DNA from: Alphaproteobacteria bacterium LSUCC0396
GTDB lineage: Bacteria; Pseudomonadota; Alphaproteobacteria; Puniceispirillales; Puniceispirillaceae
NCBI GenBank assembly: GCA_041228345.1
Contig: CP166131.1
Span: 1,729,001 to 1,793,000, forward strand
Direction: 5' to 3'
DNA length: 64,000 bases
The notes under the pieces were generated by a model. That model was not told where the DNA came from. It saw nothing but the letters and a program-made list of their open reading frames with translations, and ran no database searches. Position numbers and translations under genes: made by a program. Positions 17,065-64,000 of this stretch are shown piece by piece (position 1 is the first letter of the stretch; each line of letters starts with the position of its first letter).

Positions 17065-17853
17065 ATGATTACCAGCACCGCGAATGACGAGGTTAAACGT
17101 CTGCGGGCGTTGCATGAGCGTAAATTTCGCAAGCAGACTGGCTGGTTTTTAGCGGAAGGCGCGCGGATTTGCCGTGAGGCAGTTTCGCTTGGATGGGCGA
17201 TGCACCGGCTGGCCTTTGTCGCTGGCCGTGAGGATGACCGGCAGGTCAGGACATTACTATCCGGACTTGTTGCGGCGAATGGCCGGGCGCTGCCGATGAC
17301 CGAAACATTGTTGCAGCGGATCAGCCGTAAAGATAACCCGCAGATGGTGCTTGGTGCCTTTGGTCAGCGTTGGGACAGCCTTGATCAAATTGGCGAGACG
17401 CCGGATGAATGCTGGGTCGCGCTTGACCGGGTTCGTGATCCGGGAAATCTTGGCACGGTAATGCGCACGGCCGATGCGGTTGGCGCCAAGGGGATTATTT
17501 TGGTTGGTGATTGTACCGACCCCTATTCGGTCGAGGCGGTACGGGCGTCGATGGGCGCTGTGTTTAATGTGCGGATCATTGCCTGTAGTGAGGCGGAATT
17601 CCTGCAGTTTGCCGCAGGCTGGGAGGGCCATATTATCGGCACTGCGCTGCCAGCCGCCGTTGATTATCGCAGCGCTGATTATCGGGGATCATTGATCATG
17701 TTGATGGGCAATGAGCAGGCTGGGCTGACACCCGAATTGATGACAGCTTGCACGCAGCTGATAAAAATACCAATGCTGGGCCGTTCCGATTCGCTTAATC
17801 TTGCGGTCGCGACCGGGGTTGCGCTTTATGAGGCGCTTGCCAAACGCGGCTAG
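17065..17853 (+). CDS. SpoU/TrmH-family RNA 2'-O-methyltransferase
   Basis: SAM-dependent ribose methyltransferase with the SPOUT trefoil-knot fold. Conserved motif 1 is 'RVRDPGNLGTVMRTADA', motif 2 'IMLMGNEQAGLTPE' and motif 3 'IPMLGRSDSLNLAVATGVALYE'. The N-terminal 'KFRKQTGWFLAEGARICREA' is the SpoU substrate-binding (L7Ae-like) region. The frame opens at 17035, but MITSTANDEVKRLRAL at 17065 has the family-typical N terminus. Target (23S rRNA or tRNA) cannot be fixed. Its stop overlaps the 3' end of the convergent rlmI-like gene by 4 bp. Confidence 0.9.
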   Translation: MITSTANDEVKRLRALHERKFRKQTGWFLAEGARICREAVSLGWAMHRLAFVAGREDDRQVRTLLSGLVAANGRALPMTETLLQRISRKDNPQMVLGAFGQRWDSLDQIGETPDECWVALDRVRDPGNLGTVMRTADAVGAKGIILVGDCTDPYSVEAVRASMGAVFNVRIIACSEAEFLQFAAGWEGHIIGTALPAAVDYRSADYRGSLIMLMGNEQAGLTPELMTACTQLIKIPMLGRSDSLNLAVATGVALYEALAKRG

Positions 17854-18809
17854 CCCTCTTTGGCTACCGAGCACCAGCGTGCAAAATTTGCCTGCGCCAC
17901 ATATCGTGCCTGCATTTCAGCATTTAAAGCACCAGTGACGCCGGTTTCCAGCGGCGATTCCTGCACGGCCAATTCACCCGAGGTGAGGCTGCCGCCTATG
18001 TCAGCCACCAGATCAGCAAGCGCATAATGCGCCGCCAAAGATGACGCCCGAATGGCATAAATCGTCAGCACCATGAACAGCGCATCACCCGATAATAGCT
18101 GCCGACATTTCTGCAATAATGGCGTCAGATCATCTTCGATCCGCCAGAATTCGCCCTTTGGGCCGCGCCCATATTTCGGCGGGTCAAGAATGATGCCGTC
18201 ATAGGTTTTATCACGGCGCAATTCACGCTCGACAAAGCGGGTGGCATCATCGGTGATAAAGCGTATCGGCGCGTCCTGCATACCGCACAGATCACGATTT
18301 TCAAAAGCCTGCGCGATGGCTTTTTTGCTGGCATCAAGGTGCGTAACCTCAGCCCCAGCTGCGGCGGCGTGCAGGCTGGCAAGTCCAGAATAGGCAAACA
18401 GATTTAAAATCCTTGGTGGGCGCTTATACGTTTGGATAAAGGTGCGAATCGCGTCGGCGCACCAGTCCCAATGCGCCGCTTGCTCGGGGAAAAATCCCAA
18501 ATGACGAAATGGGGTTGGCCGCGCCAGAAACCGCAAGGACTGATAGCCCAACTGCCATGATGGCGGCAAGGTTTCCGATAGCTGCCAGCCACCACCTTCG
18601 CCATCTTCTTGGTCGTTTTTACCGGGCACAAAAACCCCATCAGCAACCCATGCTGCCTCGTCAAGACGCGGTTGCCACATTGCCTGTGGTTCGGGGCGGA
18701 TAAAACGATAGGGGCCAAAGCGTTCAAACTTCCGCAGATTGCCGCTATCCAGCAACGCGTAATCCAGCCAATTTGGGCTTGTAACTAATGATAGTTTTTG
18801 TTGTTCCAT
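17850..18809 (-). CDS. Class I SAM-dependent rRNA methyltransferase (RlmI/RlmL-like domain)
   Basis: 319-aa cytoplasmic methyltransferase. Motif I is 'ILNLFAYSGLASLHAAAAGA', followed by 'VTHLDASKKAIAQA' and the catalytic motif 'GIILDPPKYGRG' (DPPK). This order is that of the Methyltrans_SAM (PF10672) group that methylates 23S rRNA cytosines or guanines. The start MEQQKLSLVTSP at 18809 is preferred over the upstream ATG at 18845. It pairs tail-to-tail with the SpoU gene, so two RNA-modification genes converge here. Confidence 0.87.
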   Translation of the reverse strand: MEQQKLSLVTSPNWLDYALLDSGNLRKFERFGPYRFIRPEPQAMWQPRLDEAAWVADGVFVPGKNDQEDGEGGGWQLSETLPPSWQLGYQSLRFLARPTPFRHLGFFPEQAAHWDWCADAIRTFIQTYKRPPRILNLFAYSGLASLHAAAAGAEVTHLDASKKAIAQAFENRDLCGMQDAPIRFITDDATRFVERELRRDKTYDGIILDPPKYGRGPKGEFWRIEDDLTPLLQKCRQLLSGDALFMVLTIYAIRASSLAAHYALADLVADIGGSLTSGELAVQESPLETGVTGALNAEMQARYVAQANFARWCSVAKEG

Positions 18810-19086
18810 GCCGGGGATACTGCCGATAGATGCGGCAGATTGCAACCGATCAATCAGCCCCTAGAAGATGATTTAGCGGCGATCTGTATCATGATGACTG
18901 CGGGCCGATCGATGGCGGAGTAAAATTTTAATAAACTTCATATTGATAATAATATTTACTATTATTGCGATCGAACTGGTCTTTTGACGCAAATTATTTC
19001 GGAAATACTTTCAATTTTCCGGAAAACATCTATGGTAGGGCAAAAATCCCCCAAGCGTGGTGACCATTGTCATGGTCGTCATGAAA

Positions 19087-19566
19087 ATGAAAGCAGACGA
19101 CCCCATGGATCAGATAGATAGACAGATACTGTCCCAGTTGCAGGTCAATGCCGCACAGCCGGTCGCCGACATTGCGCGCAAAGTTGGGCTGTCAGTGACA
19201 CCATGCTGGCGCCGTATTCAACGGATGGAAGAAACTGGCCTAATCCGTAAAAGAGTTGCGTTGCTTGACCCGCAAAAGATTGGTGTTGGCATGTCGGTAT
19301 TTGTGGCGGTTCGCACTGACCAGCATAACGCCGAATGGCTGCAGGAATTCGCCACAATGGTTAGCGATATGCCGGAGGTTGTCGAGTTTTACCGGATGAG
19401 TGGTGAGGTTGATTATCTTCTTCGTGTTGTTGTGCCGGATATGGCGGCCTATGATAAATTTTATCGTAAGCTGATTGCCAATGTGCATTTGACCGATGTC
19501 AGTTCGTCTTTTGCGATGGAAGAGATCAAATATACAACTGCGTTGCCATTGCCTGAACTTGATTAG
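19087..19566 (+). CDS. Lrp/AsnC-family transcriptional regulator
   Basis: About 159-aa regulator. The N-terminal helix-turn-helix is 'PVADIARKVGLSVTPCWRRIQ' with 'DRQILSQLQVNA' before it. The C-terminal RAM (ligand-binding) domain runs from 'VGMSVFVAVRTDQ' to 'AMEEIKYTTALP', with the 'GEVDYLLRVVVPD' core. Three start codons lie close together (19057, 19087, 19105); 19087 gives a normal N terminus. It precedes a GT4 glycosyltransferase by 143 bp but nothing links the two; effectors are usually amino acids. Confidence 0.9.
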   Translation: MKADDPMDQIDRQILSQLQVNAAQPVADIARKVGLSVTPCWRRIQRMEETGLIRKRVALLDPQKIGVGMSVFVAVRTDQHNAEWLQEFATMVSDMPEVVEFYRMSGEVDYLLRVVVPDMAAYDKFYRKLIANVHLTDVSSSFAMEEIKYTTALPLPELD

Positions 19567-19709
19567 CCGGGCCAATGTCGTGATCTGCCCGTGGCGTGAC
19601 GTTTGATCGGTTTTGCGCCCATTGATTTTCCATTTAAGTTTTGGGTCGCATCAAAAAGTCTGCTAAGTCAAGCAATGCGCAGCGTGCTGACTTTTGATGG
19701 ATTTCTATT

Positions 19710-20768
19710 ATGACCTCTCCGAATTTTAAGATTTGCCATATTATCGCTGGTGCCCCAACCGGCGGTGCCGAGACCTTTTGTCTGGACGCGGTGAAGGCAC
19801 TTCATGAGCGCGGTGTTGAGCAAGTCATGATATCGCGCCCTCATGACGCGTATGTTAACGCGATGGCCGAGCGCGGCATTCAGCATTATCCGGCCAGCTT
19901 TAACCGTTTCACCAAATGGTTTCAGCAGGCAAAAATCTCGCGCATCATCGCCGCGCATAACCCAGATATTGTGCATTGCTGGATGAACCGCGCATCATCG
20001 TTTGCCCCACAAGGGATTAAGCAGCCGGTTCTTGGCTGGTTTGGCGGCTATTACAATTTAAAGAATTTCCAGCGTTGTGACTTCTACATGGGTGTCACAC
20101 GCGATATTGTGCGCCATATCGGAGAGGCAAGCGGTCATCCGGAAAATGCGTATCTTGGTCATACATTTGGCACGCTTGCTCAAGATCCACCGGTTTCGCG
20201 GGCAGAATTTGGGTTGCCCGAGGACAAGCCATTAGCATTGCTATTGTCGCGTATGCATTGGAAAAAGGGCGTCGATCTTATGCTTGAGGCGGCACAGCGC
20301 TTGCCGGATATGGTGTTTTTATTGGCTGGTGACGGGCCAGATTTAGAAAAATACAAAGCGATGGCAAAATCATTGGGCGTCGAAGATCGTGTCTGTTTTC
20401 CCGGCTGGCGAACAGATCGTGCATCGCTTCTCAGTATCGCCGATATTTGCGTTCTACCATCGCGCTATGAGCCTTTTGGTACAGTCATTGCCGAAGCGTG
20501 GTTCGCTGGTGTGCCGCTCGTCGCAACAAGAGCCGATGGTGCCCGCCAATATGTCACGCATGAACAAGATGGTCTGTTGCTGGATATTGACGATCTGGAC
20601 GGGTTGGTTCAATGCCTTGACCGCGCCGCCAACGATCAGGCATTGCGCAAGGCGCTGGTCAGCAATGGCCAGAAAACCTATGATGAACTGTTTTCAAAAC
20701 AGGTGGTGATCGATAATCTGATCGCCTCATACAGCGATATGATCGCCCGCCATAAAAACGGCCGGTAA
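19710..20768 (+). CDS. Family 4 glycosyltransferase (GT-B)
   Basis: 352-aa cytoplasmic glycosyltransferase. The N-terminal 'IIAGAPTGGAETFCLDAVKAL' is the acceptor-side glycine loop. The C-terminal donor domain has 'LLSRMHWKKGVDLMLEAA' and the EX7E motif 'SRYEPFGTVIAEAW', characteristic of retaining GT4 enzymes. Probably builds lipopolysaccharide or exopolysaccharide. No other polysaccharide genes surround it; the neighbours are an Lrp regulator and the convergent betB. Confidence 0.88.
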   Translation: MTSPNFKICHIIAGAPTGGAETFCLDAVKALHERGVEQVMISRPHDAYVNAMAERGIQHYPASFNRFTKWFQQAKISRIIAAHNPDIVHCWMNRASSFAPQGIKQPVLGWFGGYYNLKNFQRCDFYMGVTRDIVRHIGEASGHPENAYLGHTFGTLAQDPPVSRAEFGLPEDKPLALLLSRMHWKKGVDLMLEAAQRLPDMVFLLAGDGPDLEKYKAMAKSLGVEDRVCFPGWRTDRASLLSIADICVLPSRYEPFGTVIAEAWFAGVPLVATRADGARQYVTHEQDGLLLDIDDLDGLVQCLDRAANDQALRKALVSNGQKTYDELFSKQVVIDNLIASYSDMIARHKNGR

Positions 20769-57217: not shown

Positions 57218-57256
57218 GATCCCGTAGCTCATCAGGATAGAGCGACAGATTCCTAA
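57218..57256 (+). pseudogene. 5' half of a tRNA-Arg(CCT), cut in the anticodon loop (attachment site)
   Basis: The sequence folds as the 5' part of a tRNA: acceptor strand GATCCCG, TA, D-stem GCTC/GAGC with a standard D loop, then anticodon-stem strand ACAGA and loop TTCCTAA (57250-57256, anticodon CCT). After the loop the sequence changes to AT-rich DNA that cannot complete the stem (TCTGT is expected). This is what an attL junction made by recombination within the anticodon loop would look like. The 3' half should be at the other end of the element, beyond the window. Confidence 0.85.
57250..57256. other. Candidate attL core TTCCTAA
   Basis: The 7 bases of the anticodon loop are the last host-like bases before the composition change, and the same seven occupy the loop of the intact tRNA-Arg at 57408-57414. 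A seven-base core equal to an anticodon loop is a common crossover site of tyrosine recombinases. Confidence 0.65.
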
Positions 57257-57377
57257 TATTTGTATAGATTATAGTGTATTGTTTTAATTACGAAATAATG
57301 TGTTGATATTTTTTGTTAATAAATTGTTAAAATTTGCTTTTGTTAAAATCATTTGATATTAGTTAGTTGTGTGGTTT

Positions 57378-57454
57378 GGTCCGTTAGCTCAGATGGATAG
57401 AGCATCAGTTTCCTAAACTGAGGGTCAGAGGTTCGAATCCTCTACGGATCACCA
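57378..57454 (+). tRNA. tRNA-Arg (anticodon CCT), element-encoded
   Basis: Complete cloverleaf: acceptor GGTCCGT/ACGGATC (one G-T pair), D arm GCTC/GAGC, anticodon arm TCAGT/ACTGA around TTCCTAA, variable GGGTC, T arm AGAGG/CCTCT with TTCGAAT, discriminator A and encoded CCA. It differs in many positions from the host remnant at 57218 and lies in AT-rich element DNA, so it is the element's own copy. It would replace the host tRNA destroyed by integration and serve the element's AGG codons. Confidence 0.95.
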
Positions 57455-57492
57455 CACTGATCATAAAAAATTGATCTGTATCCATCTATGTG

Positions 57493-57533
57493 ATCTCATT
57501 TGATCAGAAACCATTTCTGTTCCGAAATGAGAT
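57493..57533 (+). promoter_or_regulatory. Nested hairpin directly before the first glycosyltransferase start
   Basis: ATCTCATTT (57493-57501) pairs with AAATGAGAT (57525-57533) around an inner CAGAAA-CCA-TTTCTG hairpin (57505-57519). The structure ends three bases before the ATG at 57537, and no Shine-Dalgarno is evident, so it may control translation or be a processing site. Confidence 0.55.
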
Positions 57534-57536
57534 TTA

Positions 57537-59198
57537 ATGGATCGTATTTTTATTCCTACGGTCAATAGAGTTGACCGACAGATCACATATAATGGGTTAC
57601 CAAAATCACTTCAAAAGAAAGTGACTATGGTTGTCCAACATTGGGAACGACCTCAATACAAATACGATTGTGATTATTTGGTTTTACCTAAGAAGTTGGA
57701 TTTGTCTGATCCGATGTGTTTACCAAAAAGTAGGGAAATCATTTATAGGGAAGGTAGGAACATCAAATATTCGGTTATTGATGATGATCTTATTTTCAAA
57801 AGAAGGAACCAAAAGAGATTTGGATTACCTTCCGATATGGAAAAGAGTAGTAGGTTATGTACCAATAAAGATGTAACCGAAATGTTTAAAACATTTTCCA
57901 AATGGTTGGATGATCCAACTGTTACTTTTTGTGGTCCATCACAAATCCAAAATATTCCCTCAACAGACTTTTATAAGAACAACCAATCCATCAGTAGTTT
58001 TGTCTGTTTCAATGGATCAGATTTTAAAGATGTGTTGGATGATTTACCCACCACTGAAGTGAGGTATGGGGAAGATACGATATTCTTTTTAAGTCTTTTA
58101 AGTAGAGGTTTTGGAAATAGAGTTTCCCATTTATTTTGTTTTGGTAATGAAAGTTTAAAAGGAAAAATACCATCGGATGTTTGGGATAAAACCAAATACA
58201 ACGATGTTTGGAGGGATCATAAGAAGATAGAAAAAATGTTCCCTCAGTTTTTCAAAATCCCATTGGATGAAAATGGAAAACGAATAGAAGGTGGGTTTAG
58301 AAATTTCGGTAAGGTCCGAACCTATTGGTCAAAATGTTACCAATCATCTCAGTTCAAATCACAAAAGAGTGGTAAAAAAATGAGTTATAGATTTAGAGGT
58401 CACAACCGTATCAACCTCAATGATGATTTAGAAAATGAAATCAAACAACGGTTCGATGATGACAGAGAAAATCGATTTCAACTGTTTTTATTGAGTAGTT
58501 CTATTCGGAAGAAGTATTTGGATAAGACTACCAACCAATACACTAAAGAATTTCAAAAATGGTATTCTGACAAAAAACTAACTGACTATTACGGATCATT
58601 GTCAAATTTCACCAAATACTGTGGTTGTGGTGAAGTGGTTAATTATGTTGGTACCAAAACATCAGATCCCCAAAAATACCTAAAACAATTACCCTTATCA
58701 GTTGGATCACTTTACGAACTTTCGATGGTTCTTAAATCTGATAAAGATCTGTTCAATATCCTTCTTCATTACACACCAAAACGAAAATCAGTTGATGAAC
58801 CAAAGTTTGATTGGATCACCAAAAGACCACCACTCATTAGATCTAATCAAACTGAAAAGGGTGTGAGAGATTGGAGACAAAAGTGGGAGAATCCACCACC
58901 ACCGAAACCAAAAAGAACCGATAAACGAACTTTGAAATTTCTTACGATTACTGTGAATGGTGAGTTGTTCGATTTCGATAAAAAGAATGGTGATAAAATC
59001 GGATGTGTTGATTTGAATGATGTTGAGAATTTTCTAACTAAGGTTAGGAAACTGATTACCAAAGAAAACGAACATCAATTTCTGATCACAGATGAAATGG
59101 AGTATCTCACTGATGGGTACTTCAAACGAAAAGATCAAACGGATGTAACGAAAAATCTGAAGGGTGGTAAAAAAGATACCACTAAGAAATACAAATAA
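57537..59198 (+). CDS. Probable TAGT-like DNA-base glycosyltransferase with fused DNA-binding-like domain
   Basis: 553 aa, no signal peptide. N-terminal half looks like a GT-A fold: first strand 'RIFIPTVNRVDRQITY', 'DYLVLP', then a DDD at residues 82-84 ('YSVIDDDLIF') where GT-A enzymes hold the metal/nucleotide motif, and 'YGEDTIFFLSLLSRG' (ED at 179-180), the acidic acceptor-side motif. This architecture and the neighbouring gene suggest the TET-associated glycosyltransferase (TAGT) group of phage DNA-modifying enzymes. Residues about 330-430 are helical with 'LKQLPLSVGSLYELSMV', like the LPxSxxxLYEL helix-turn-helix modules of phage DNA-binding proteins. The C terminus is lysine-rich. The TAGT assignment is weaker than for the next gene. 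Confidence 0.6.
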   Translation: MDRIFIPTVNRVDRQITYNGLPKSLQKKVTMVVQHWERPQYKYDCDYLVLPKKLDLSDPMCLPKSREIIYREGRNIKYSVIDDDLIFKRRNQKRFGLPSDMEKSSRLCTNKDVTEMFKTFSKWLDDPTVTFCGPSQIQNIPSTDFYKNNQSISSFVCFNGSDFKDVLDDLPTTEVRYGEDTIFFLSLLSRGFGNRVSHLFCFGNESLKGKIPSDVWDKTKYNDVWRDHKKIEKMFPQFFKIPLDENGKRIEGGFRNFGKVRTYWSKCYQSSQFKSQKSGKKMSYRFRGHNRINLNDDLENEIKQRFDDDRENRFQLFLLSSSIRKKYLDKTTNQYTKEFQKWYSDKKLTDYYGSLSNFTKYCGCGEVVNYVGTKTSDPQKYLKQLPLSVGSLYELSMVLKSDKDLFNILLHYTPKRKSVDEPKFDWITKRPPLIRSNQTEKGVRDWRQKWENPPPPKPKRTDKRTLKFLTITVNGELFDFDKKNGDKIGCVDLNDVENFLTKVRKLITKENEHQFLITDEMEYLTDGYFKRKDQTDVTKNLKGGKKDTTKKYK

Positions 59199-60646
59199 TG
59201 GGGAAGATAAAGAACAACATCGAAGTAGTAGAAACCACATCATACGATGATTTGGTTGATGAGGTTAATAAGGTTGAGAAATACGAATTAGGTTATCAAC
59301 CACCAAAACCAAAAGGTAAGAAATCTGATTACCCATTTGTGTTGAAAGTTCATTGTTGGAACATCACCGATACACAAAAATTCTGTGAAACAATCGGTAA
59401 ATCACTAAGTAGTGATAAAACAAAATTCACCTACACATCACATCAATCAAAAGATCCGAAGTTTGTTGAGAAAAGGAAAAATCCGTTTCCTAAGAAAACC
59501 TCACACAAAGATCGAATTGAATCACAACTTTGGAAAAATACGGTTGAGTTTTGGAACGATGGTTGGAGACCCTACATTACCTTTCACATCACCTTCAAAA
59601 ATCAAAAATCTCATATGGAGTTTACGAAGAAGGTGAAACAAAGGTTATCGTTAAACCTTCCATATATGAACTTTCCTTTTAGAGAACCAAAGAAGTGGAA
59701 GTATTGGTGGGTTTGTCGAAGTGAAACGGTGAAACCTCAATATCCAATTTACATAGTTTCAAAGAATAGAGGTGATAGTCGTTTAACCTCAAAGTGTTTG
59801 GAACGGTTAGGTATCCCTTATTACATCGTAATAGAACCACAGAATTACGATGAATACAGTTGTATGATCGATAAAGAAAAGATCTTAGTTCTTCCGTATT
59901 CAAATAGTGGTGATGGTGTTGGTAGAAGCCGTAATTGGGTTTGGGATCACTCAACCCAAATGGGATTCAAACGACATTGGGTGATGGATGACAACATCAC
60001 TGATTTCTTCAGATTGTACGGAAATAGAAAACTTCCTATCGGTGATGGTGGGATGTTTAGGGTTTGTGAGGAGTTTGTTGATAGGTTTAAGAATGTACCT
60101 ATTAGTGGTCTCCAATATGATTTCTTTTGTGTAGATAAAGTACCTCATCCACCGTTTGTTAGAAATTGTAGGATCTATTCGGTTCTACTGATTGAAAATA
60201 GTTGTCCTTTCAGATGGAGAGGTAGGTACAACGAAGATACAATTTTGAGTTTAGATGTACTTAAACATAAGAAATCCGATCCATCGTTGTATGAACCACA
60301 GTTCGATATCAAAAATTACAAAAAGGATGGTTGGAAAGGAGATCTATGTACAATCCAATTCAATTGTCTACTTCAACATAAATCACCTACTCAAAACTTA
60401 GGTGGTGGTAATAGTGATGAGTTCTATTTCAAAGAGGGTACTTACAACAAATCAAAGATGTTGGAGGTCATTCACAATGATGTGAGTAAGGTGGATTGGA
60501 GATTTAGTAGGTATCACCATACGGTTAACTACAATCCATTTAAGGGTAATGAACTTCAGTATGTGGACGGTTATGATCCATCAAAGAATAAGAGTGAAAC
60601 TGAACTTTTTGAGTTCGATAGGGTGAAGGATTACTTCAAAAAATGA
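59198..60646 (+). CDS. TET-associated glycosyltransferase (TAGT) family protein
   Basis: 482 aa. The catalytic domain begins at residue 183: 'PIYIVSKNRGDSRLTSKCLE', 'IPYYIVIEPQNYDEY', 'ILVLPYSNSGDGVGRSRNWV', 'RHWVMDDNITDFFRLY' (DDN 264-266) and 'RYNEDTILSLDVL' (ED 346-347) are in the order known for TAGT enzymes of phages, which attach sugars to hydroxymethylated pyrimidines in DNA. Residues about 45-180 hold two tandem copies of a small alpha/beta module ('FVLKVHCWNITDTQKFCETIG' and 'YITFHITFKNQKSHMEFTKKV', shown by their starts). The start overlaps the previous stop by one base (TAATG). No TET/JBP dioxygenase or hydroxymethylase is visible. Confidence 0.8.
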   Translation: MGKIKNNIEVVETTSYDDLVDEVNKVEKYELGYQPPKPKGKKSDYPFVLKVHCWNITDTQKFCETIGKSLSSDKTKFTYTSHQSKDPKFVEKRKNPFPKKTSHKDRIESQLWKNTVEFWNDGWRPYITFHITFKNQKSHMEFTKKVKQRLSLNLPYMNFPFREPKKWKYWWVCRSETVKPQYPIYIVSKNRGDSRLTSKCLERLGIPYYIVIEPQNYDEYSCMIDKEKILVLPYSNSGDGVGRSRNWVWDHSTQMGFKRHWVMDDNITDFFRLYGNRKLPIGDGGMFRVCEEFVDRFKNVPISGLQYDFFCVDKVPHPPFVRNCRIYSVLLIENSCPFRWRGRYNEDTILSLDVLKHKKSDPSLYEPQFDIKNYKKDGWKGDLCTIQFNCLLQHKSPTQNLGGGNSDEFYFKEGTYNKSKMLEVIHNDVSKVDWRFSRYHHTVNYNPFKGNELQYVDGYDPSKNKSETELFEFDRVKDYFKK

Positions 60647-60690
60647 TTTCGGATCCGAAATGGGAAATTGAGGTTTAGGGAACTAATTTG

Positions 60691-61047
60691 ATGAGATGGG
60701 TTTTTCTAATATTGATAGGTGTGTTGTGTTGGGGAGGATTTGTTCAACACACTCACAATGAGGAAGGTGTAAAGGAGGGTGTTGAGGAACTGTTTACAAA
60801 GAATGGTTACTCAAACATTGTAGTTAGTGGTGTAAATCTTCCGATATCCTATACTTTCCTATCACAAAAGGTTGTGAGTGAAGTGTTCATAAAAAGGGAT
60901 GGTAAAGACCAAAAGATTGATGTGACTATCACACCAATAGAGGGTTTCCCTATCATTTCAATATTTCTTCCACCATCATTTTACATAGAGGTAAACAACT
61001 TTGAGAATTTAGGTTTGGATTTTCTGAAGTGGTTGTTTGAAAAATAA
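60691..61047 (+). CDS. Small exported or membrane-anchored protein of unknown function
   Basis: 118 aa. An N-terminal hydrophobic stretch (residues about 4-18, RWVFLILIGVLCWGGF) is a signal anchor or signal peptide. The rest has alternating beta-strand-like segments and a hydrophobic 'FPIISIFLPPSFYIEV' near the end. I do not recognise a family. It lies 44 bp after the TAGT gene and 30 bp before the NERD gene in the same direction, so it is part of that transcript. A TTG three bases earlier could also start it. Confidence 0.65.
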   Translation: MRWVFLILIGVLCWGGFVQHTHNEEGVKEGVEELFTKNGYSNIVVSGVNLPISYTFLSQKVVSEVFIKRDGKDQKIDVTITPIEGFPIISIFLPPSFYIEVNNFENLGLDFLKWLFEK

Positions 61048-61077
61048 CAACAGAGATAGAAAAACGGAATATGAACA

Positions 61078-61764
61078 ATGAGTTGGTATTACTACATAAT
61101 CATCTGTGTTCTGTTGATGGTAGTGATCGGATCTCTGAGATCAAACAGATACAAAAAATCCTCCTACTACCAAAGTACTAAAAAATCCCTTTCCCAATTG
61201 GATAAAGGTGAATTGGGAGAATATCAAATTTGGGAGGAATTGGAGTGGTACGAAAAAGATGGAGGAAAGTTTCTTTTTAACCTCTATATTCCTAAACCAA
61301 ATGAAGAGACTACAGAAATCGATGTAGTTCTTATTCACCCTAAAGGGTTCTTTGTCATTGAAAGTAAAAACTACAGTGGTTGGATCTTTGGTAATGATAA
61401 AAACCGATATTGGACACAAACTTTACCGATGGGTAGAGGTCGTCAAAGTCACAAAGAAAGATTTTACAGTCCTCTAAGACAAAATGGATCACATATCAGA
61501 TATCTCAAAAGAGTTCTGAATGAGACTGTACCAATGTGGTCACTGATAGTTTTTTCAAATGAATGTACATTTAAGGGTGTATCAGTTTCATCTGAAAAAC
61601 GGTTTAGGGTAATTCACCTCAATGAATTGAGATCTACGGTCAAACAACTCATAGATGAAACAGAAGAAGTTCTTTTTTCCGAAGAGGACATCCAATGGAT
61701 GTATGAAGAACTTTATCCGTTCACCACAGAAGATGAGGAAGTCAAAATCAAACATAAGAGTTAG
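61078..61764 (+). CDS. Membrane-anchored NERD-domain (nuclease-related) protein
   Basis: 228 aa. One N-terminal membrane helix (residues 4-20), then a NERD domain: 'LDKGELGEYQIWEELEW' (glutamates near 44-48), 'TEIDVVLIHPKGFFVIESKNYSGWIFG' split as D82 and the E95-S-K97 motif, the PD-(D/E)xK-like core. Such proteins are predicted nucleases of DNA processing or defence, though few have been tested. The C-terminal 100 residues have 'LRQNGSHIRYLKRVL' and 'IVFSNECTFKG', usual for the family. Its 3' end overlaps the convergent recombinase by 4 bp. Confidence 0.85.
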   Translation: MSWYYYIIICVLLMVVIGSLRSNRYKKSSYYQSTKKSLSQLDKGELGEYQIWEELEWYEKDGGKFLFNLYIPKPNEETTEIDVVLIHPKGFFVIESKNYSGWIFGNDKNRYWTQTLPMGRGRQSHKERFYSPLRQNGSHIRYLKRVLNETVPMWSLIVFSNECTFKGVSVSSEKRFRVIHLNELRSTVKQLIDETEEVLFSEEDIQWMYEELYPFTTEDEEVKIKHKS

Positions 61765-62363
61765 ATCAGATCAACTACTTTCCTTTGAGATTCACTATCA
61801 CCCTCAATGTATCTTTGAGTAGTTTGTAGTGATCTATGACCTACCATCATCTGAATATCCCTCAATGATCCACCAACTAATGATATCCGTTTAGATGTTT
61901 CGGTGATAAATGTTCTTCTCCCACTATGAGATGAACACCCCAATAAACCTAATCTCCGATACCAACTCTGAAACATATTCACTACACATTGAGAAGTTGT
62001 GAAAGGTGATCTCTCAGTTCGAACTACAAAAGAGGTATCGATGTTAAAAGATCGGTACATCCGTTGTTGTTGATCCAACAATTCAATGAGATTTTTACGA
62101 AGGTCTTTGTTGATAGGTATAATTCGTCCACTGAGACCTTTAGAACTTCTATTAGTAAGATTAATATGATCAGACACTTTACCATCACTATCACAAACCT
62201 CTTTCCAACTGAGTTGTGAGATTTCTTTAGATCGAAGACCACCTTTTACGGACAAAAGGAATATGGTTTCATTTCTTAAACCATTCCTTTTTGACCGAAG
62301 GTAAGACCTCATCATTTCGATTTGTGATTTATTGAGTGTCTTTGATTGTTTACCTATTCCCAT
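61761..62363 (-). CDS. Tyrosine recombinase/integrase, catalytic-domain-only (FimB-sized)
   Basis: 200 aa. Catalytic residues: R44 ('KGGLRSKEISQL'), H146 and R149 ('SSHSGRRTFIT'), H176 ('MVGHRSLQTTQ') and nucleophile Y185 ('TTQRYIEGD'). The usual N-terminal SAM-like and arm-binding domains of phage integrases are missing; only about 30 residues precede the catalytic domain, as in FimB/FimE. It is the best candidate for recombination at the tRNA-Arg anticodon loop 4.5 kb to the left. Divergent from the HEPN-like gene across a repeat-rich 176-bp region. Confidence 0.92.
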   Translation of the reverse strand: MGIGKQSKTLNKSQIEMMRSYLRSKRNGLRNETIFLLSVKGGLRSKEISQLSWKEVCDSDGKVSDHINLTNRSSKGLSGRIIPINKDLRKNLIELLDQQQRMYRSFNIDTSFVVRTERSPFTTSQCVVNMFQSWYRRLGLLGCSSHSGRRTFITETSKRISLVGGSLRDIQMMVGHRSLQTTQRYIEGDSESQRKVVDLI

Positions 62364-62539
62364 AATTTGTCTCCAAACTGATTATCAAATTATGGTTCCT
62401 AATTATATCATCATCAGTTATTTTTAACACCCCTTTTTAGGTATTAAATTACTGAATAAACTCAATATTTTATGAAATCTGATTATACTTTGTAAATTCT
62501 ATAATCAGTGGTCTATAGTTGGATTAGATACCATTTTTT
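62364..62539. promoter_or_regulatory. Recombinase/HEPN divergent control region with CTGATTATA repeats
   Basis: Very AT-rich. A perfect inverted repeat CTGATTATA (62479-62487) / TATAATCAG (62500-62508) is joined by another direct CTGATTAT at 62378. TATAAT (62500-62505) can act as a -10. These repeats are plausible binding sites for a regulator such as the element's ribbon-helix-helix protein, or recombinase accessory sites. Confidence 0.6.
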
Positions 62540-63133
62540 TTGAGTTGTTTGATGTCTGAAGATCTGAAGTTTACCAACAAACAAAAGAACATTCGTATGG
62601 AAGGTGAGGAAGGTAGTACTCAAAACCGATTACGGTATGAACTGTACACCGAAGGTTTCAAACGAATTAAAGAAGGTTTGGAAGAAGAACGATACTTTGA
62701 GGTGTGTTGTATTGTTGATTCAATTATCAATGATCGTCTCACAGCATTAATCCAAACAATTAAAAACGATGACGGTATCGATTACACCTACCAATCAGTA
62801 GGTATGGTGATACGAACTCTGTTTAAGATTGTTAAAGAAGATAAGATTTTACTATCAACAGATTTTAGGAAGTTGATGAGTAATATTGAACAGATTTGGT
62901 TACCTAAACGAAACTTTGTAAGTCATTCGTTTGTTGGTGTTACACCATCCAACATAGATTTGAATTTAGAGGATCGATTACAGATCGTAAAAGAATGTGG
63001 TGAATTGGGTTCTAAGTATTGTAGGGATCTGACAACTGAATGTGATAAAATGATTCACATCATCAAAAATTACGGAATTCCATACAAAACCCCATTCAGT
63101 AATAGAAAATCAAATACTGAATGGGATACGTAA
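62540..63133 (+). CDS. Probable HEPN-domain protein
   Basis: 197 aa, almost wholly helical, cytoplasmic. Residues 41-75 ('RIKEGLEEERYFEVCCIVDSIINDRL', by its blocks LEEERYFEV and IVDSIINDRL) resemble the second HEPN helix, and 'LPKRNFVSHSFVG' holds R124-N-F-V-S-H129, an R-x4-H motif, the catalytic signature of HEPN RNases in abortive-infection and toxin-antitoxin systems. No partner nucleotidyltransferase (MNT) is adjacent. The downstream genes are convergent. Function as a defence RNase is inference from one motif and position. Confidence 0.6.
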   Translation: MSCLMSEDLKFTNKQKNIRMEGEEGSTQNRLRYELYTEGFKRIKEGLEEERYFEVCCIVDSIINDRLTALIQTIKNDDGIDYTYQSVGMVIRTLFKIVKEDKILLSTDFRKLMSNIEQIWLPKRNFVSHSFVGVTPSNIDLNLEDRLQIVKECGELGSKYCRDLTTECDKMIHIIKNYGIPYKTPFSNRKSNTEWDT

Positions 63134-63397
63134 TTATTTCTTTGAACCTACCAAACCTTTTTTCATCCGATTAAGTAGTTGAGAGTCGTTTGAAGAAACA
63201 CCAATCCCTAATCCACCAATATATGAAAGTAAGTTGTTCTGTTGAGAGATCAGATCGTTCTGTTTCTTTGGGTCAGTTTCAGTTTGAATCCGTTGTGATA
63301 AACCCCTCATTTTGAGTACCAAACCACCTACAACGAATTTTACCCATAGTGGATATTTACCTTCATTGATGGTGATAAATTGTTTGAAACTGTACAT
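63134..63397 (-). CDS. 87-aa phage-like protein with T4-type capsid-targeting N terminus (putative)
   Basis: The N terminus MYSFKQFITINEG resembles the capsid-targeting sequence of T4 internal proteins (MKTYQEFIAE type), and I-N-E-G at residues 10-13 fits the T4 prohead-protease consensus (L/I)-x-E before A/G. The remaining 75 residues contain a hydrophobic stretch ('WVKFVVGGLVLKM'), a glutamine-rich helix and a glycine-rich loop. No family recognised. Its ATG immediately follows the stop codon of the upstream gene, with a GGAGG site inside that gene's end. Third gene of a leftward operon. Confidence 0.7.
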   Translation of the reverse strand: MYSFKQFITINEGKYPLWVKFVVGGLVLKMRGLSQRIQTETDPKKQNDLISQQNNLLSYIGGLGIGVSSNDSQLLNRMKKGLVGSKK

Positions 63398-63589
63398 CTA
63401 CACCTCCAATACAATGATGGTGTAGTTTTTTTGATTGGTAGTTCGTTTAAGTTCTTTATCGATCTCATCAATTTGTGAGTTATCAACGTAATCGAATTTT
63501 CTAATCTTTTTGACCTTCACCTTTTGTACGTAAGAATTGAGTTCTGATTTGGATAACTCAAAATTTTTGTTGGTGATTGGATAGATCAT
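63398..63589 (-). CDS. 63-aa protein of unknown function
   Basis: Small, basic, with 'YVQKVKVKKIRKFDYVDN' and a beta-strand-like end 'KNYTIIVLEV'. No recognisable domain. ATG overlaps the stop of the ribbon-helix-helix gene (ATGA), and its own stop abuts the 87-aa gene, so it is translationally coupled to both. Could be a small DNA- or RNA-binding protein; that is speculation. Confidence 0.65.
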   Translation of the reverse strand: MIYPITNKNFELSKSELNSYVQKVKVKKIRKFDYVDNSQIDEIDKELKRTTNQKNYTIIVLEV

Positions 63590-63954
63590 TTCAATTCACC
63601 TAACCTACCTAAACCACTGACGTCTGACCAATCATCGTTATGGTAGTCAGATTTTAATGGGATCATTGGTTTGTCATCATCATCAAAGTAACTATCCGTT
63701 GATGTAGTCGGTCGTTCTGATGACGGTTGGGTTCTGAATGATTTGTTTTTGTGAGATCTAAGTTTCACATCATTGAGGAGTGATTGAAGTTTATCATCCT
63801 CTTTGAGTTGTTGATGTTCAGATCTTAACCATTGTTCCATCAGTGTATTGATGATGGAGGTTCTACTAATTCGTTTGAATTTAACTAAATCATCGAATGA
63901 GGTTTTAAGGTGATTTGGACAATAAAAGGTAATGGAAGAACTATTGGTATTCAT
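63586..63954 (-). CDS. Ribbon-helix-helix-like DNA-binding protein
   Basis: 122 aa. Residues 5-45 have the pattern of a ribbon-helix-helix: a strand 'SSITFYCPNHLKTSF', helix 'DDLVKFKRIS' and helix 'SRTSIINTLMEQWLRS'. The rest is charged and probably disordered, ending 'SDVSGLGRLGELK'. Such proteins act as repressors of element genes or as plasmid-mobilisation/partition accessory factors. AAGGAG lies eight bases before the ATG. It is a candidate binder of the CTGATTATA repeats. Confidence 0.75.
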   Translation of the reverse strand: MNTNSSSITFYCPNHLKTSFDDLVKFKRISRTSIINTLMEQWLRSEHQQLKEDDKLQSLLNDVKLRSHKNKSFRTQPSSERPTTSTDSYFDDDDKPMIPLKSDYHNDDWSDVSGLGRLGELK

Positions 63955-63963
63955 TTTGACTCC

Positions 63964-64000
63964 TTAGTAGATCATAAACTCATCCAATGTCATTGGAGGT
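63964..64000 (-). CDS. 3' end of a further leftward gene (very short part)
   Basis: On the minus strand, codons ending 'PMTLDEFMIY' run to a TAA at 63966-63964 that is merged with the AAGGAG site of the next gene, as in tightly packed phage operons. Only 11 residues are inside the window, so this is tentative. Confidence 0.35.
   Translation of the reverse strand, partial: PPMTLDEFMIY

Follow-up and report, generated by a model that had tools for sequence, protein, structure and literature searches.

An integrative element in a tRNA-Arg(CCT) gene of an alphaproteobacterium is free of the word CNNG and nearly free of GC dinucleotides

As described in the sections of PMC10803314 considered here, the satellites of virulent phages PICMI and PLE are elements of about 10 kb that integrate site-specifically, possess their own replication gene, lack capsid genes and carry cargo possibly acting against competitors; replication of PICMI is of the rolling-circle type. 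Tycheposons and VEIMEs, according to the corresponding sections of PMC10872708 and PMC10803314, are marine, bordered by tRNA genes and equipped with a tyrosine recombinase and cargo, and some are thought to move in virions; tycheposons span 4-200 kb, with a XerD-type recombinase and metabolic cargo. The element analysed here shares the listed traits of PICMI and PLE, and differs from them in its HUH Rep, with no AlpA or primase seen, in the replacement of a whole tRNA and in a purge of DNA words. With tycheposons and VEIMEs it has in common the marine setting, the tRNA border, the tyrosine recombinase and the cargo, a likeness at the level of description, and the sections cited make no mention of a word purge. 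Phages wholly eliminate recognition words of restriction enzymes (Rusinov 2018, PMC6286503), as is also seen in this element and its distant relatives. The published cases concern orthodox Type II sites and are strongest in non-temperate phages (PMC6286503); here the avoiding DNA is an integrative element, and just two bases of the word are fixed.

The analysed window is a stretch of 64,000 bp (positions 1729001-1793000) of the single 2,592,803-bp contig of Alphaproteobacteria bacterium LSUCC0396, a host whose order-level relatives include SAR116 single cells. The first-pass annotation, which saw only the left 6.8 kb of the element, had described a tRNA gene cut in its anticodon loop and an abrupt change in composition, and both observations were confirmed. 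The 5' half of the host tRNA-Arg(CCT) gene, split in the anticodon loop, lies at 57219-57257 (+), through the attL core ATTCCTAAT (57249-57257), and the G + C content falls at the junction from 0.56 to 0.34-0.37. The integrated element is complete and has a length of 9,391 bp. Its left 6.7 kb occupy window positions 57258-64000 (no strand assigned; delimited by the att cores and the CNNG-free run), and its right end is at L002 10646 (genome position 1795646; window-equivalent 66646), 2.65 kb past the window. The rightward extension proposed earlier as a check recovered the 3' half of the tRNA and the matching attR core ATTCCTAAT (L002 10647-10655), as well as a 408-aa integrase and an HUH Rep. 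When rejoined, the tRNA halves fold as an intact tRNA-Arg(CCT). Another genome of the species, G082, has the site without an insertion (98% over 122 bp), as have further members of the genus. The worry that the junction is an assembly chimera is thus excluded, because the contig is single, the attL and attR cores match and the site is empty in G082. With its integrase, matching att cores and empty site in relatives, the element is an integrative mobile element.

A complete tRNA-Arg(CCT) is located inside the element at 57378-57454 (+), as found by ARAGORN, Rfam and the host tRNA survey; like the right end and the near-absence of CNNG and GC, it had been missed in the first reading. In the host tRNA survey no other tRNA recovered from the genome has a CCT anticodon, and therefore the element now supplies tRNA-Arg(CCT).

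From the left, this tRNA is followed by genes for two TAGT-like glycosyltransferases, a 119-aa protein, a NERD protein, a 200-aa recombinase, proteins of 197, 87 and 63 aa and an RHH-like protein and, beyond the window, for a 134-aa protein, a 165-aa Rep (HUH initiator of rolling-circle type; Pfam REP_ORF2-G2P, above cut-off) and the 408-aa integrase, the second tyrosine recombinase of the element. The glycosyltransferase pair, one of them assigned to TAGT, the NERD protein and the tyrosine recombinase had all been correctly recognised. The second glycosyltransferase (482 aa; 59198-60646, +) is a clear TAGT (Pfam 2.9e-29) with up to 48% identity to homologues from phage records, and keeps the DD motif HWVMDDN, whose DDN is near-invariant among phage relatives. 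The first (553 aa; 57537-59198, +) matches PHROG 842 (1.3e-16) and, below the cut-off, Pfam TAGT (8.8e-4). Neither contains alanine. The 119-aa protein (60688-61047, +) has no family match in Pfam or PHROG. The NERD-domain protein (228 aa; 61078-61764, +; Pfam 7.9e-29) has a 64% identical homologue in the decayed relative L158. The recombinase (61761-62363, -; Pfam 1.2e-17) consists of the catalytic domain only and is the marker of a wider family, with 83% identity to its G119 counterpart and relatives in SAR116 and other taxa. An AT-rich inverted repeat, TGATTATACTTTGTAAATTCTATAATCA, lies at 62480-62507 (no strand) and has a similar sequence at L152 about 22-50; it is possibly a dif-like site.

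The 197-aa protein (62540-63133, +) is HEPN-like in a weak sense only, through a PADLOC match to Csx1/Csm6 (CARF+HEPN; E 0.0045), and its structure model (pLDDT 38) was too weak for use. Two backbone proteins are encoded by 63398-63589 (-; 63 aa, no family match, in place and size like its 63-aa counterparts in G119 and G101) and by 63586-63954 (-; 122 aa); the latter, noted earlier as an RHH protein, has a weak Arc-like match (PHROG 582, E 0.043) and is conserved in four elements. Between them and the 197-aa gene lies the gene of the 87-aa protein (63134-63397, -), whose T4-like capsid-targeting start, MYSFKQFITINE followed by GKY, is as described in the first-pass annotation and is conserved in G119, G101, G064 and G068. 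The T4 internal proteins IPI, IPII and IPIII share the start M-x-x-F/Y-K/Q-x-F followed by E before a small residue (MKTFKEF in IPI, MKTYQEFIAE in IPII and IPIII), and positions 4 and 7 target them into the head (PMC9026906). These two positions in the 87-aa protein, within one short N-terminal motif, suggest a T4-like phage as helper. The mature part of the protein, as far as compared, is not comparable with that of the T4 proteins; the low-confidence model of the 87-aa protein (pLDDT 60, too weak for use) is all-helical, and IPI is mixed alpha/beta.

Scans of the main ORFs from attL to attR with Pfam and PHROGs gave no capsid, portal, terminase or tail genes, and no TET/JBP, hydroxymethylase or cytosine methyltransferase; terminase, portal, TET and hydroxymethylase genes had been suggested as targets of the rightward search. 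Of the earlier alternative of a prophage or a satellite, the ordinary prophage is rejected, since no structural or packaging genes were found in these scans; the content of integration and replication genes, without particle genes, fits a satellite-like element. As for a DNA-hypermodification system of TET/JBP and TAGT, the TAGT domain and DD motif are present and the TET/JBP partner is absent. Glycosylation of DNA by the predicted TAGT enzymes is possible, and peripheral to the understanding of the element. The NERD and HEPN-like genes may act against competitors, as the earlier reading had it. Hairpins of the form TCATTTC...GAAATGA are repeated between genes (window 57508-57532 and 60641-60665; L002 9113-9165); a T run comes after one or more of them, so that they may be terminators that do without GC and CNNG.

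The word CNNG does not occur in any of the 9,391 bp, against 276 expected, and the GC dinucleotide occurs six times, also against 276. The CNNG-free run measures 9,439 bp and ends within both host tRNA halves; elsewhere in the 80-kb stretch no such run exceeds 113 bp. Element tRNAs have no CNNG, while 36 host tRNAs have 2-10 each. The element is AT-rich, which could point to an effect of chance, composition or codon usage; such an artefact is refuted by the word counts, the codon shuffles and the occurrence of the purge in several genomes, and we give it practically no credence. The expected counts are already based on the element's own composition, CG, the other C/G dinucleotide, stands at 0.73 of expectation, and no other base pair at distances of 1-12 falls below 0.4. 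Shuffling of synonymous codons gave 127±8, 164±9, 75±7, 33±4 and 25±4 CNNG for five element segments, the first value being that for the genes of the present element, and 0 were observed in each; for the host control it gave 1180±16, with 1200 observed. CNNG is absent from genes and non-coding DNA alike, to a degree that neither codon usage nor composition predicts, and this is restriction-site avoidance in this sense. Within window positions 57258-64000, GNC is at 0.43 of expectation, and not low in G119, and GATC at 2.7 times expectation.

The proteins of the element contain one alanine in 2,690 residues; alanine is nearly gone because GCN is its codon family. In the alignment of the second glycosyltransferase, 19 columns are at least 40% alanine among the homologues from phages; there the element protein has S, C, V, F, P, R, T, D or G. 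The purge itself is solid; its cause we infer. A mutational process, such as deamination of cytosine in CNNG and GC contexts, would be in keeping with the C in both words and with their being self-reverse-complementary. It is nevertheless very improbable. The lost words were replaced evenly (C3C 1.40, C3A 1.24, C3T 1.16; GA 1.26, GG 1.18, GT 1.09) and not C-to-T specifically, and selection is therefore favoured over C-to-T mutation. The replacement spectrum and the former alanine columns, now S, C, V, F, P and others, both disfavour deamination, as do the zero leftover sites and the loss of different palindromes in different relatives.

Close relatives were found in SAR116 genomes. A first genome scan with the integrase alignment gave none, and among IMG/VR viral contigs the integrase, small recombinase and Rep queries found no backbone relative, only a match of 24% identity. 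In G119 the corresponding tRNA site is occupied by a second copy, which brings a tRNA of its own and no TAGT or NERD. Its integrase, recombinase, 87-aa protein and Rep are 79%, 83%, 80% and 41% identical to those of the element, and it has 2 CNNG against 331 expected. The cargo of this copy (L106 8400-11500) has no CNNG and yet keeps many GC; the two pressures are therefore separable, and that on CNNG is the stronger. In G101 the same backbone is combined with a different integration module, again without TAGT. For this element, which we joined from halves on two contig ends, 261 CNNG and 261 GC were expected, and 2 and 5 were counted; none of its 3,249 codons encodes alanine. We read its backbone as adjoining the 3' end of glmS. 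Fragments in G068 and G064 have 0 CNNG against 54 expected and 2 against 74. The purge is maintained while the proteins diverge to 41-83% identity. In decayed copies, several with stop codons (G098, G100, G102, G103, G104 and G064), CNNG has been regained to a varying degree. This regain, together with the upkeep across diverged copies, argues for selection while the element is mobile. In G064 a decayed copy (L151 7000-17400) lies beside a nearly CNNG-free fragment (17423-20013), and the pair could possibly serve as a clock for the return of sites.

As backbone and purge occur in relatives without TAGT, the hypermodification cargo does not define the element. TAGT is likewise ruled out as the cause of the purge, since G119 and G101 are purged without it and TAGT-bearing viral contigs have normal CNNG. 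The sole CNNG of the G119 and G101 elements belongs to one conserved intergenic sequence, TGTCCCTGGATWC, which is part of a repeat dispersed between cargo genes, AACTTAGGACA-n-AGAC-n-TGTCC. At a guess, this repeat may be a recombination site. Dispersed inverted-repeat sites of about 45 bp, AACTTAGGACAnnAGAC...TGTCC, were observed between cargo ORFs (L106 5957, 6517 and 7594; L153 9217, 10874, 12269 and 12682; L152 2517; L160+L130 9380, 21503 and 22141), and may be cassette recombination sites for the small tyrosine recombinase.

The explanation we prefer, with a probability of roughly 0.6, is that this satellite-like SAR116 element meets sequence-specific nucleases at each transfer and that selection removes every site. 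On each transfer its DNA would encounter a nuclease of CNNG specificity and a second one of GC specificity exerting a weaker pressure; it would probably travel in the particles of a T4-like helper, which would take up the 87-aa protein as well. Each leftover site would lower survival, so that selection would recode genes, tRNA and intergenic DNA until none was left, at the price of nearly all alanine; once the element was stuck in a chromosome, selection would end and sites would return. Purging about 276 sites in this way needs a small independent cost per site, and the same pressure is assumed across recipients of several genera. No CNNG nuclease and no helper phage were identified in the genomes and viral contigs searched.

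Within the nuclease-escape explanation we tentatively suggest, with somewhat less than even confidence, that cytosines are methyl- or hydroxymethyl-modified during travel, that the enzymes avoided are SgeI-like and modification-dependent, and that TAGT glycosylation would be a second shield. The MspJI-family enzyme SgeI has a listed specificity, CNNG (PMC6822723), identical to the avoided word, is the only enzyme we found so listed and cuts at methylated cytosine; PMC3874153 gives it as m5CNNR, not CNNG. The MspJI family cuts m5C and hm5C and spares glucosylated hm5C (PMC3874153). In contrast to that system, no such enzyme was found in the host, and modification of the element's DNA is hypothetical. 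A search with the PF18062 profile gave no match in the genomes, its controls being equally silent; Mrr_cat occurs in 13 of 136 genomes (absent from G000) and McrBC in 4 of 136. The titles and abstracts of the phage literature considered do not describe CNNG avoidance. A phage TET study reportedly concerns a GpC context.

The main rival is a special case of nuclease purging in which the agent is a phage and the target unmodified DNA: a nuclease of a helper or competitor phage would cut unmodified CNNG (and GC), the phage's own DNA would be protected by modification, and the site-free element would survive. A phage whose DNA is fully modified could tolerate a two-base specificity, which would be hard for a cell, and the T4-like targeting start of the 87-aa protein speaks for phage involvement. 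Both elements of G027 lack RGCY, which is the listed specificity of CviJI, an enzyme from a Chlorella virus. We consider this rival less likely; against it, no such phage or nuclease was found in our searches and the TAGT-bearing viral contigs have normal CNNG. Conventional host restriction-modification of CNNG (and GC) specificity is less probable still: we know of no conventional enzyme with two fixed bases, and in the host roughly 1 in 16 positions would need methylation. Beside CNNG-purged elements, chromosomal CNNG is undepleted (0.95-1.0), and lasting 5mC might have depleted it. In its favour, relatives avoid the ordinary Type II words GATC, GGCC, CGCG and CATG, and phages are known to use the avoidance of sites as a strategy (PMC6286503).

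If nuclease escape during transfer is the true cause, this would be the most extreme DNA-word avoidance known to us, a two-base word having gone from a whole replicon, tRNA included. It would yield natural proteins of up to 553 residues without alanine, and the alanine-free recombinases, glycosyltransferases and Rep would be natural test cases for reduced amino-acid alphabets. It would also predict a specific, findable nuclease, with restriction pressure being readable from the sequence of an element alone.

Other words are missing from further elements, which were reached via the integrase or via the small recombinase. The 28-kb element of G078 (G078b) has 0 RGCY against 219 expected and 0 GTAC against 45. 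Both G027 elements are without RGCY, one of them having the same backbone as the CNNG elements (0 against 59 expected), and those of G042 and G046 are without GATC. With the recombinase alignment, relatives were found in Methylococcaceae, Chlorobiaceae, Sphingomonadaceae, Beijerinckiaceae, Ferrigenium and others, and several lack GGCC, CGCG, CCGG, GATC, CATG or RGCY across 5-13 kb, where more than 20 were expected. The purged words are present in most flanks, and none of 21 control windows was purged. Some of the relatives, L249, L252 and L255 among them, are without a clear purge, which is therefore not universal, and G194 (L237), a distant match of the 87-aa protein, shows no word purge. Restriction-type word removal is common in this wider group, with CNNG and GC as its extreme. 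It seems to us an even chance that SAR116 cells or phages possess an undescribed nuclease with two fixed bases (CNNG, modified or not) and another for GC, that a satellite rewrote its proteome by dropping alanine, and that the word missing from each family member would read out the restriction landscape.

The 28-kb element of G078 extends from L109 7224 to L116 17476, in tRNA-Arg(CCG), and carries a Type III-like Mod protein; a second one in the same genome (17.4 kb, L108 8306 to L115 5725) has 0 ACGT and 0 GTAC. In uncultured Alphaproteobacteria (L250 11950-15504, L258 and L266), a Cas9-like gene (RuvC_III, HNH, Cas9_a) lies two genes away from that of a small-recombinase relative. Relatives in Methylococcaceae UBA1147 (L242 and L260) are accompanied by many MORN-like repeat genes, and in L260 GpC is at 0.10 of expectation.
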